Assembly (NCBI RefSeq): GCF_016526145.1
Contig: NZ_JADDUE010000005.1
Location: forward strand, 124,001 to 188,000
Source of the DNA: Saccharopolyspora galaxeae
GTDB lineage: Bacteria; Actinomycetota; Actinomycetes; Mycobacteriales; Pseudonocardiaceae
DNA length: 64,000 nt
Direction: 5' to 3'
In this document: piece after piece, positions 23,605-59,631 of the stretch
Numbering within the stretch: position 1 is the stretch's first letter
Layout: the number at the start of each line of letters is the position of its first letter
Made by a program: the position numbers and the translations under genes
Notes under the pieces: model-generated
What the model saw: only the letters and a program-made list of their open reading frames with translations
Told to the model about the DNA's origin: nothing
Databases searched by the model: none

Positions 23605-24597
23605 TCAGTAGAGCCCGGTGTCGACGTGTTCGGCGATCGTGAGGTGCTCGCGCAGCACGCCGAACCGCTCGTAGTTGTCGGCGATCTCCTGCAGCTGCCC
23701 GACGACCCGGCCGTCGACCGGTCCGCCGACGCGCTGCTGGCGCTGCGCGACGAGCCCGGCTACCTCCGGCCCGCGGTGGCTGACTTCGCCGTAAACCCGC
23801 GCGTTCGCCGCGGGATTCGCCCGCGCCCACTCCAGAGCCCGGTTGTAGCGGGCGATGAAATCGCGGATGGCCGCGCGGCGCGCCGGGTCGTCCAGCGCTT
23901 CTTGGTAGGCGTTGATGAAGCTGAGCCCGTAGGACAGCCCTCGCGCGTCACGCAGGATGGTGGCGCCTTGCTCCACCTGCGCCGCCGCGGTGTAGGGGTC
24001 CCATGTGGACCAAGCGTCGATCGCCCGGGAACTCAGCGCGGCACTGGCGTTGACCGGCTCGAGGAAGCTGATCCGCACGTCCCGCCCGGAAAGCCCGGCC
24101 TCGCGCAGCGCGTTGAGCAGCAGGTAGTGCCCGACGCTGCCGGGCGTCGTCGGGGACACGGTCCTGCCGCGCAGGTCGGCGACGGTGCTGATCGGCGAGC
24201 CGGGCGGCACCAGGATCGCCTGCCCGAACGAGCGCTGCGCCCGGGTCGCCGAAACGATCTTCAGGTCGGCGCCGGAGCCGAGCGCGTTCAGCGTCGGCGC
24301 GTCGCCTGCGAACCCGATGTCGACGGCGCCGCTGCGCAACGCCTCCAGCAGCGGCGAAGCGGCGGCGAACTGGGACCAGCGCAGCTGGTACGGCACGTCG
24401 CCCAGCACGCCCGCGGCGTCCACAAGGGACTGCTGGATCCCGGCTTGGTCGCCGACGGTCAGCGTGACCTTGCTGAGGTCGACGCTGCCGTCCGCGCGCA
24501 CCGCCGGATCGCCGCCGCACGCCGCGAGGAACATCGGGCTCAGCGCGACCGGCGCGGCGGTCAGCGCGGACAGGAACGAGCGTCGCGAGGTGCTCAT
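23605..24597 (-). CDS. ABC-transporter substrate-binding lipoprotein, aliphatic sulfonate (SsuA/TauA) type
   Basis: 330 residues from ATG 24597 (GGAGGAG upstream). Twin-arginine lipoprotein signal: TSRRSFL, hydrophobic stretch, LAAC lipobox (Cys 27). Mature part is an SsuA/NMT1-like periplasmic-binding fold: VTLTVGDQAG, VDIGFAGDAPTLNALGSG, VADLRGRTVSPTTPGSVGHY, AIDAWSTWDPYTAAAQVEQG. Would bind a sulfonate or similar small organosulfur compound outside the cell. No permease or ATPase gene is adjacent. A Cys-rich leader peptide lies upstream, which supports a sulfur-related role. Confidence 0.88.
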   Translation of the reverse strand: MSTSRRSFLSALTAAPVALSPMFLAACGGDPAVRADGSVDLSKVTLTVGDQAGIQQSLVDAAGVLGDVPYQLRWSQFAAASPLLEALRSGAVDIGFAGDAPTLNALGSGADLKIVSATRAQRSFGQAILVPPGSPISTVADLRGRTVSPTTPGSVGHYLLLNALREAGLSGRDVRISFLEPVNASAALSSRAIDAWSTWDPYTAAAQVEQGATILRDARGLSYGLSFINAYQEALDDPARRAAIRDFIARYNRALEWARANPAANARVYGEVSHRGPEVAGLVAQRQQRVGGPVDGRVVGQLQEIADNYERFGVLREHLTIAEHVDTGLY

Positions 24598-24682
24598 GCA
24601 CTCCTCCGGGGATCGGGCGCGCACGCGCGCCGGCCGCGCCCGAACGGCGGAGCGCGGGATGAGGTGAAGCGGGACCGGGGCG

Positions 24683-24769
24683 TCAGCGCGGACAGCGCGG
24701 ACAGCGCGCGGCGCAGACCCGGGAGAGGTCGACGTGCTCCCGAGTGGTGAGCATCGGCCGGTGCGGCAT
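24683..24769 (-). CDS. Cysteine-rich leader peptide upstream of the sulfonate binding protein
   Basis: 28 codons (23 if the ATG at 24754 is used). The peptide contains LTTREHVDLSRVCAARC and ends with PRCPR: the (T/R)RxHVDLxRV..A.C core is that of the actinobacterial leader peptides found upstream of cysteine and sulfur assimilation operons, where run-on of Cys codons is read as a sensor of Cys-tRNA charging (attenuation). Three Cys codons lie in the last ten. The stop is 86 bases upstream of the SBP start on the same strand. Assignment as an attenuator is by family resemblance; no terminator/antiterminator fold was worked out. Confidence 0.75.
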   Translation of the reverse strand: MPHRPMLTTREHVDLSRVCAARCPRCPR

Positions 24770-24895
24770 GCGAGGACCGTAGGTGCCGGAGATCCCGGGG
24801 TAAACCCGATCCAACGGGTTGGGAATCGGGTGCGCACGCCCGAACGTCCGCTCCCGGCTGGGCGCGGGTGCCGGGACGGCGCATATGGTGGCGCC

Positions 24896-25612
24896 ATGGC
24901 TGAAACGATCACCGCTGAGTTCACCAGCGTCGGTTCCTCCCGCGTGTACCTCGCCCGGCCGGACGACGACGGCGGTGCGGGCATGCTGCTGCTGCCGATG
25001 GTCACCGGTGTCAGCGAGCAGGTGCGGGAGTTCGCCGCGGACCTGGTCGGCACCGGGGTCACCGCGCTGTCCTGGGACCCGTGGCAGGGCCCGAACGCCG
25101 ACGACACCGCGCACGAGAAGCTGTTCGAGCTGATGGGCCGGCTCGACGACGAGACGGTGCTTGCCGAGCTGGAACGCCTGCTCACGCACATGTTCGACGA
25201 ACTCGGCCTGTCCAGGGTCGGTGTCATCGGCTGGTGCATGGGAGGCCGCTTCGCGCTGCTGCTCGGCGGCCGGGACCAGCGGCTGGCGAACGTGGTGGCC
25301 TACCACCCGACGGTGCCGATCCCGCCGGCCGCGAACCACGCGCTGGACGCCGCCGAGCACGCCGCCCGGATCCAGGCGCCGGTGATGATGCTGTACCCGG
25401 GTGCGGACCACCTCGTGCCGCGGGAGAGCTTCGACGCGCTCGATTCCGCGCTCAACGGCCGGGAAACGGGGGCCAGCATCGTGCACAACTACCCGGGTGC
25501 CGATCACGGGTTCAGCGCCCGCGGCAGGCAGGACAAGGAGGTCAACGCGACCGCCTACAAGCTGTCCTGGCCGCAGGCCCTCGATTTCGTGCGCACCACG
25601 ACGCGTCCCTGA
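24896..25612 (+). CDS. Dienelactone hydrolase family protein
   Basis: 238 residues, alpha/beta hydrolase with a Cys nucleophile: GVIGWCMGGRFAL puts it at Cys 114, Asp in YPGADHLVPR and His in GADHGFSARG complete the triad. Consistent with carboxymethylenebutenolidase-type enzymes, though the short family members act on varied esters and lactones. ATG 24896 is the only well placed start. Divergent from the leader peptide/SBP gene. Confidence 0.88.
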   Translation: MAETITAEFTSVGSSRVYLARPDDDGGAGMLLLPMVTGVSEQVREFAADLVGTGVTALSWDPWQGPNADDTAHEKLFELMGRLDDETVLAELERLLTHMFDELGLSRVGVIGWCMGGRFALLLGGRDQRLANVVAYHPTVPIPPAANHALDAAEHAARIQAPVMMLYPGADHLVPRESFDALDSALNGRETGASIVHNYPGADHGFSARGRQDKEVNATAYKLSWPQALDFVRTTTRP

Positions 25613-59256: not shown

Positions 59257-59631
59257 ATGCGCGCGGCCGCGGGTTTCCGCGCCGTCCGGCGGCGCCACGT
59301 CGACCTGCTGCGGGTGATCAGCGCGCGGTGTCCGGGCACTCCCGCCACCGCCACGTTCCCGCAAGCAGGAGAGGAATTCCCATGCCCGGCACACACCTCG
59401 CCGTCGCGCTGGACGGCGCGGGCTGGCACCCGGCGGCTTGGCGCGATCCGAGCGCCACGCCGGAAAAGCTGTTCACCGCGCCCTATTGGGCCGCGCTGGC
59501 CCGCACCGCGGAGCGCGGGCTGCTCGATTTCGTCACCGTCGAGGACGGTCTCGGCTTGCAGTCCGAGGACCACCTCGAGCCCGGTGACCGGCGCACCGAC
59601 CGGGTCCGCGGCAGGCTCGACGCGCAACTGA
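59257..59631 (+). CDS. HVDL-type leader peptide upstream of LLM monooxygenases, without an early stop
   Basis: Begins with a good site (GGGAGGGAGG before ATG 59257). Residues 12-25 read RRRHVDLLRVISARC, the same core as the 24.7 kb leader and as actinobacterial sulfur leader peptides. Instead of ending soon after the Cys, the frame stays open for 125 codons to 59631, overlapping the first 250 bases of the monooxygenase gene, which is in another frame. So either the stop has been lost, or leader translation normally runs into and interferes with the structural gene. Only the first ~25 codons look functional. Confidence 0.55.
   Translation: MRAAAGFRAVRRRHVDLLRVISARCPGTPATATFPQAGEEFPCPAHTSPSRWTARAGTRRLGAIRAPRRKSCSPRPIGPRWPAPRSAGCSISSPSRTVSACSPRTTSSPVTGAPTGSAAGSTRN

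Follow-up and report, generated by a model that had tools for sequence, protein, structure and literature searches.

An HVDL-type leader frame in front of a separated sulfonate-binding protein gene of Saccharopolyspora, a candidate for coupling the gene to cysteine supply

In the genome of Saccharopolyspora galaxeae, a frame of 28 codons lies shortly before a gene for a predicted sulfonate-binding lipoprotein (SBP), which raises the question whether this frame is a genuine leader peptide and whether it links the gene behind it to the supply of cysteine. The initial annotation of the window (the whole stretch of 64,000 nucleotides that was analyzed) described the frame as a Cys-rich leader on the same strand as the SBP gene, with three Cys within its last ten residues. 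Translation of the minus strand at 24683-24769 confirms the frame, the strand and the 3 Cys within the final ten residues of the 28 aa peptide, MPHRPMLTTREHVDLSRVCAARCPRCPR. The close spacing of leader and gene stands as well, but not the distance of 86 bases: the gap between the leader stop and the SBP start codon (24597) measures 85 nt. The features of the leader and the gene are as follows.

24683..24769, minus strand: leader peptide ORF, MPHRPMLTTREHVDLSRVCAARCPRCPR and a stop codon (translation; present before the ortholog in 6/6 genus genomes)
24701..24736, minus strand: conserved core, HVDLSRVCAARC (112 leaders; residue and codon tables for 73)
24701..24703, minus strand: invariant Cys codon at core position 12, UGU (UGU in 88/112 leaders)
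24689..24706, minus strand: tandem duplication, CGCTGTCCG twice, origin of the third Cys codon (one copy in genome G001)
24601..24607, minus strand: Shine-Dalgarno (SD) sequence GGAGGAG of the SBP gene (direct reading)
23605..24597, minus strand: gene for an SsuA-type sulfonate-binding lipoprotein (profile matches)

The SBP belongs to the SsuA_fam family TIGR01728, whose cut-off of 163.5 bits it passes with 165.4; by direct reading, its residues 24-27, LAAC, are lipobox-like, and an SRRSFL motif is present too. The neighbors of the gene, on the opposite strand, encode an S-adenosyl methyltransferase (PF04672) and a dienelactone-hydrolase-type protein (PF01738).

Conservation of the small frame among relatives, on which the initial annotation had staked its reading, was found throughout the genus: all six Saccharopolyspora genomes, two of which represent one species, possess an SBP ortholog, and a leader precedes each. 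The 23-residue stretch that begins at the start and ends with the conserved Cys reads MPHRPMLTTREHVDLSRVCAARC in the window copy and in G001, the second genome of the same species, and MPQRPMLTTR(D/G)HVDLSRV(S/A)SALC in the four other species. Relative to the four other species, the window copy has 3-6 silent codon changes and 5 replacements, compared to 1-3 silent and 0-2 replacement differences among the four; the peptide on the branch of the window species thus compared shows no sign of strong constraint. The number of Cys residues varies as well, with three in the window copy, two in G001 and one in each of the four other species. A second copy of CGCTGTCCG, missing in G001, supplies the window copy with its third Cys; the Cys residues occupy core positions 8, 12 and 15, none of them adjacent. 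What is conserved, as judged from the aligned peptides, is one Cys in a constant position, 11 residues past the core His. Thus, Cys-richness does not hold as the defining trait, nor did the leader inherit it, because the four other species carry a single Cys and the third Cys results from the repeat of CGCTGTCCG.

We then compared the peptides with the NCBIfam models of leader peptides. Peptides of the family NF042934 (cis_reg_atten, 'putative leader peptide') typically come from a short ORF that precedes a gene on its own strand, and the window frame shows this arrangement in front of the SBP gene. The proposed assignment to the HVDL type is borne out by the match of the core and by the three distinct ortholog peptides of the four other species, which pass the NF042934 cut-off of 27 with 32.2-34.5 bits; the window copy itself stays below it, at 19.9 bits (E 4e-4). 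The window copy shares the HVDLxRVxSxxC-type core of this family, but its core has drifted, with Ser9 replaced by Ala, Leu11 by Arg and an additional Cys at position 8; by sequence, it is a diverged relative of the NF042934 members and, by the cut-off, not a member. The G001 peptide (20.3), the leader of the ssuC gene in this genome (22.8) and the second leader in the window (22.4) are below the same cut-off. Against NF042936 (Ms4527A) the window copy reaches 21.7 bits, short of the cut-off of 45, and Ms5788A (NF042933) is absent from the matches listed for it. In a six-frame search of the genome with NF042934, the window leader alone is modest (E 0.021), and at E values up to 10 matches appear in 10/14 control genomes as well (9/14 for NF042936). 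At E<=0.001, the NF042934 search yields 10 places in this genome and 0 in the 14 controls. Because the core precedes the ortholog in 6/6 genus genomes, and because of these matches, which are lacking in the controls, the small frame is real, beyond chance. At E<=1e-4, matches were found in 57/60 genomes of the bacterial family (55 of them above the cut-off) and at E<=1e-5 in 11/198 genomes across the phylum, this genome counted, with 0/14 controls in both cases. Over the sample, the core mostly follows the pattern [HYA]-[VI]-D-[LF]-x-R-x-x-[SG]-x-x-C, and most of the leaders have a single Cys.

The same search places the frame in a larger set within its own genome, so that what seemed an isolated small frame becomes one among 17 leader-like loci. 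Sixteen of these come from NF042934 (16 retained of 21 matches, six of the 16 above the cut-off; the five weak matches L021-L025, with E 1.9 or more, were left out as non-leaders) and one from NF042936. Seven of the 17, with E above 0.001, were kept on context, that is, the core, a short frame and the downstream gene; one of the loci (L031) has no core Arg, and this locus and L016 have no early stop. The claim that such leaders precede sulfur genes agrees with the downstream genes, which at about 11/17 loci fall into named sulfur families; these gene calls are approximate because the starts were picked by a script, partly on the SD score (at L005, an internal start was chosen). The families are two SsuA-type SBPs, sulfite reductase, TauD, cysteine dioxygenase, an SsuC-like permease, O-acetylhomoserine/O-acetylserine sulfhydrylase, TauE, the dimethylsulfone monooxygenase SfnG, the FMN reductase SsuE, and a DUF4395 protein whose gene adjoins a sulfurtransferase-like gene. 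The second SsuA-type SBP gene behind a leader is followed by an alkanesulfonate-monooxygenase-like gene, and two further luciferase-like monooxygenases and one FMN reductase behind leaders fit desulfonation. Three leaders precede genes that are not clearly related to sulfur, namely those for a dicarboxylate-type symporter, an MFS transporter and a secreted protein with no Pfam match. The window contains another HVDL leader of its own, at 59278-59331 on the plus strand (RAVRRRHVDLLRVISARC, with UGU), before a gene that starts at 59382. In the four other species, this second leader has a stop 13-14 codons past the first core residue and then a luciferase-like monooxygenase gene; in the genome of the window and in G001 that stop is lost and the frame overlaps the start of the gene.

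If the conserved Cys matters to the leader, its codon may be telling, and we examined it in 112 leaders, 17 from this genome, 68 from the bacterial family (among the matches listed, with 40 further places of that list included) and 27 from outside the family. Duplicates (L026-L030, L032-L035) were left out and near-identical pairs such as L058/L061 and L068/L089 retained; L064, a same-species copy of L005, is excluded from this count and included in the 73-leader tables and in a 70-leader promoter count; 13/86 leaders outside the first core pattern were taken back in for the 112. The Cys 11 residues past the first core residue is encoded by UGU in 88 leaders and by UGC in 24, and UGU accounts for 79/102 once identical peptides are removed. 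By contrast, UGU makes up 9/213 Cys codons in the genes downstream of the same loci, 14/75 of the other Cys codons of the same leaders, and 5/100 in the script-picked coding regions of the window. The presence of Cys is inherent in the search, whereas the choice of UGU over UGC is independent of it; kinship among the leaders causes statistics to overstate their independence, and the 17 loci of one genome, 16 of which have UGU, are the cleaner sample. The fractions elsewhere are 45/68 in the bacterial family (among the matches listed) and 27/27 outside it. UGU is not universal, given that 23/68 family leaders, among the matches listed, carry UGC. Within these, UGC is confined to leaders of sulfite reductase (14/17, counting L054, which was assigned by 73% identity to the L006 protein) and TauE (9/9), as opposed to 0/42 of the others; in the S. 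galaxeae genome, the UGC leader is the one before sulfite reductase, and the TauE leader has UGU. Outside the bacterial family, the sulfite-reductase leaders have UGU in 4/4 cases. Nor is the codon effect confined to Cys, because the Asp at core position 3 also has a T-ended codon more often (43/112) than the background (142/2151).

The other core residues are written with several synonymous codons, AGC, TCC, TCG and AGT for Ser, CTG, CTC, CTT and TTG for Leu, and CGC, CGG and CGT for Arg, which speaks for selection on the peptide. Core residues that stay constant while codons vary, together with the single Cys of most sampled leaders, would also fit an arrest peptide, in which the nascent chain itself serves, inside the exit tunnel, as the sensor for cysteine or a sulfur metabolite, and TnaC is described as a precedent for such a peptide. 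Decoding of the Cys codon is favored instead by the bias toward UGU and by the additional Cys codons that some lineages have, and we consider an arrest peptide rather improbable.

If a ribosome is to reach this codon, the leader needs a start, and the sequence before it contains the following elements.

24776..24781, minus strand: -10-like TACGGT, 6 nt before the leader ATG (alignment; TANNNT in 6/6 genus genomes)
24799..24804, minus strand: -35-like TTTACC, its first T 35 nt before the leader ATG (direct reading)
24800..24826, minus strand: conserved, partly palindromic block, ATTCCCAACC(C/T)GTTGGAT(C/T)GGGTTTAC (alignment of six genus genomes)

A scan of 24500-24950 for consensus sigma-70 promoters gave no site. 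Among related leaders, TTGAC is located 35-38 nt before the candidate ATG or GTG in 15/69, compared to 0.4 expected (eight of the 15 are in this genome; 16/70 when one same-species duplicate is counted). An SD-like sequence precedes the leader start in 0/16 of the TTGAC-bearing leaders and the downstream gene in 16/16, those downstream starts having been picked partly by SD. A strict test for TANNNT gave a weak signal, with 9/72 leaders at 11-13 nt against 0-5 at shifted positions. The spacing of the elements fits a leaderless transcript. The block at 24800-24826 ranks with the best conserved DNA of the region in the six genus genomes and possibly combines an operator with the promoter. Its conservation would agree with control of the gene by a transcription factor bound to this palindromic block, the small frame being incidental; the leader frame is, however, conserved past the block, and similar frames occur at 16 other places in the genome, which renders this explanation very unlikely. 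In two orthologs of the genus, a 16-base stretch around the end of the block resembles sequence that precedes the ssuC leader in this genome, with 15/16 identities shown for one ortholog and an equal score for the other.

The RNA between leader and gene is the next place where regulation could reside. The terminator and antiterminator helices that had been proposed for it do not materialize on folding: no terminator-like site is found in 24500-24950, and the leader region is not more stable than shuffled sequences (z 0.22), so that a terminator/antiterminator switch was rejected. The intrinsic terminator with a competing hairpin that distinguishes classical transcription attenuators was not found at this locus. 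The six genus sequences are too similar for judging a consensus RNA structure; for 14 sulfite-reductase leaders, the consensus comprises 12 pairs, four of them double-changed, with a folding term of -6.1 and a slightly unfavorable covariation term. A search of the whole window with Rfam gave no match at the curated thresholds, and in 24500-24950 a single chance-level match to a CRISPR repeat (E 1.7).

Translation attenuation, whereby structure in the mRNA masks the ribosome-binding site (RBS) of the SBP gene until a ribosome stalled at the Cys codons unmasks it, has been reported for related leaders of cysteine genes in M. smegmatis (PMC13236596), and the SD of the SBP gene, read directly, is strong. 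At the loci examined here, however, the cost of opening the RBS equals that of shuffled sequences (10.05 vs 9.79 for 58/72 leader-gene pairs, p 0.88; 11.8 vs 11.9 for the window leader), a stalled ribosome adds no opening in the same 58 pairs (p 0.70), and none of eight duplex tests of pairing between leader and RBS on 62 pairs is significant (lowest p 0.06). Sequestration and unmasking of the RBS, for which these computed opening energies and duplexes give no signal, was therefore rejected as the design sought in these calculations, which are blind to pseudoknots and locus-specific designs; as an explanation of the locus, translation attenuation appears somewhat unlikely.

What does distinguish the RNA past the leader stop is its composition.

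24623..24682, minus strand: C-rich RNA past the leader stop, C 0.50, G 0.32 (composition)

Over 57 pairs, the excess of C over G (C minus G) past the leader stop is 0.203, and the corresponding values are 0.045 within the genes and 0.017 ahead of the promoter; nine pairs of this genome have a mean of 0.159 (p 0.0017). The value is 0.012 before 24 genes of the window whose 5' region is free, some of which may themselves be under leader control. At the window locus the excess is modest, 0.18 vs 0.10 upstream of the promoter (C 0.45, G 0.35 there). The tract is possibly a Rho-loading region, C-richness alone being no proof.

Taken together, these features make it likely that a leaderless uORF of the HVDL type couples the SBP gene to cysteine supply through a pause at UGU. 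The transcript would begin with the leader AUG itself, its first base being the A at 24769. Under a shortage of Cys-tRNA, the ribosome would pause while the rare UGU (24701-24703) occupies the A site; the upper exit tunnel would then hold the conserved RxHVDLxRV segment. A pause this few codons before the stop would place the ribosome so that it shields the start of the C-rich, G-poor RNA, and the shielded RNA would escape Rho-dependent termination. With plentiful cysteine, the ribosome would terminate and depart, and expression would drop. Less likely, the pause would act by opening the RBS of the SBP gene. The geometry would be like that of tnaC of Escherichia coli, where Rho-accessible RNA follows the leader. 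The likeness is one of operation only, a pause near the leader end, since tnaC is described as responding to free Trp by arrest and its sequence is unrelated.

The gene under this putative control appears to be one half of a divided transporter. At C30:355-359.6 kb, a leader, YVDFARVSSALC, precedes genes for an SsuC-like permease, an SsuB-like ATPase, an alkanesulfonate-monooxygenase-like protein and a hydrolase-like protein; the best NCBIfam matches, to SsuC, SsuB and alkanesulfonate monooxygenase, are each below cut-off. This operon contains none of the genome's four SBP matches, and the window SBP gene is located ~210 kb from it, each with its own leader. In G023, G009 and G054, three genomes of two other genera, the SBP ortholog is within the operon run, which follows a single HVDL-type leader that has UGU; in the 10 kb examined of G082, nothing but the SBP, the monooxygenase and a piece of a hydrolase was found. 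Outside the genus, a leader within 900 nt before the SBP ortholog was found in 0/4 cases. Because the SBP sits in a leader-ssuC-ssuB operon in these three genomes, it appears to have left the operon in Saccharopolyspora, in agreement with the earlier reading as a split transporter. Both halves would respond together, because the separated ssuC-ssuB operon carries a leader of the same kind; the separate leaders suggest shared control that survived the break-up of the operon. A second SsuA (C21) is a candidate alternative partner for the permease. A joint duplication of the SBP gene and the ssuC promoter and leader was considered and not adopted, since the ortholog leaders are near the ssuC leaders and others are equally near, which is suggestive only.

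The description of the SBP gene as standing alone applies to the species of the window, in both genomes of which no monooxygenase gene was found within ~1.5 kb after it, but not to the four other species, where a luciferase-like monooxygenase gene comes next. That difference, the loss of consensus residues, the score below the cut-off, replacement differences as numerous as silent ones on this branch and the missing stop of the other leader in the window could mean that the window copy is a decaying remnant without regulation. Nevertheless, the promoter-like elements, the start codon, HVDLxRV and UGU are intact, and identical in G001, and the added Cys codons would be expected to raise the sensitivity to Cys, not to lower it. 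Decay is therefore quite unlikely in our view, and coupling to cysteine through the UGU pause is preferred for the window copy as well.

The HVDL leader type is already known, and the reading as a cysteine leader is right in kind, with the response to cysteine predicted. In mycobacteria, related leaders respond to cysteine, as reported in PMC9094748 and PMC13236596. The frame shares with the mycobacterial polycysteine leaderless uORFs Ms5788A and Ms4527A the core and the Cys codons near the stop; unlike these, it has no consecutive run of Cys (and one Cys in 4/6 genus genomes), its target is a sulfonate-binding protein, and the mRNA structure hiding the RBS was not found in the computed folds. 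The -35/-10-like elements, among which no consensus promoter was found, have a spacing that would fit a leaderless start. Before mycobacterial cysA2 (Rv0815), a leaderless, Cys-rich small ORF has been reported to be occupied by ribosomes, and regulation was proposed (PMC4633059); it is likewise a Cys uORF before a sulfur gene, but has clustered Cys codons. For candidate leaders of cys operons in Mycobacterium, Propionibacterium and Bifidobacterium, Rho was proposed in a prediction that its source calls weak (PMC1262725); these leaders, as described there, share the Cys codons near the stop and have no conserved terminator hairpin, and differ in their runs of Cys codons and their place before cys/cbs operons. 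The uORFC-8-2 before cysS of Rhodobacterales is a Cys-codon uORF too, in other bacteria, with two tandem Cys codons, predominantly UGC, and an intrinsic terminator (PMC8632094). None of the eight leader peptides listed for S. lividans is called Cys-dependent in that list (PMC8079986). The open-access literature searched yielded nothing on the UGU bias or on HVDL leaders before sulfonate genes, and no description of the C-rich tract or of the conserved UGU codon was found in it; a key source, Canestrari 2020, is outside this coverage and reportedly deals with polycysteine leaders and translation attenuation in M. smegmatis.

With UGU in 79% of the leaders at one position, compared to 4% downstream, the hypothesis that one codon senses cysteine in a leader with no polycysteine run becomes testable, and the natural alleles with 1, 2 and 3 Cys provide a ready-made dose series. 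It is possible, and we propose this tentatively, that HVDL leaders in general are single-codon Cys sensors assisted by the nascent chain and hypersensitive at UGU, that the choice between UGU and UGC sets a hierarchy in which scavenging of sulfonates and sulfones and sulfite reductase respond at different cysteine levels, and that the mycobacterial polycysteine leaders are a lineage-specific elaboration of an older single-codon device. The kinship suspected between polycysteine and HVDL leaders finds support in one polycysteine peptide with AVDLCRVAGCCCCCCSC (L127), which passes the cut-offs of both NF042933, that is, Ms5788A (56.3, cut-off 45), and NF042934 (44.5, cut-off 27); therefore, the two kinds of leaders are one family by sequence, in which the polycysteine run may be the lineage-specific elaboration. 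This leader precedes a DUF4395 gene, as does leader L013 of the S. galaxeae genome. The polycysteine leaders L127-L129 (AVDLCRVAGCCC...) have the core in common with the single-Cys HVDL leaders. Another leader subfamily, VRLWRRVHMDL(V/L)RYAGCVCRPS(C/F), was observed in the same class, in another order (L135, L136, L139, L140, L141 and L144).
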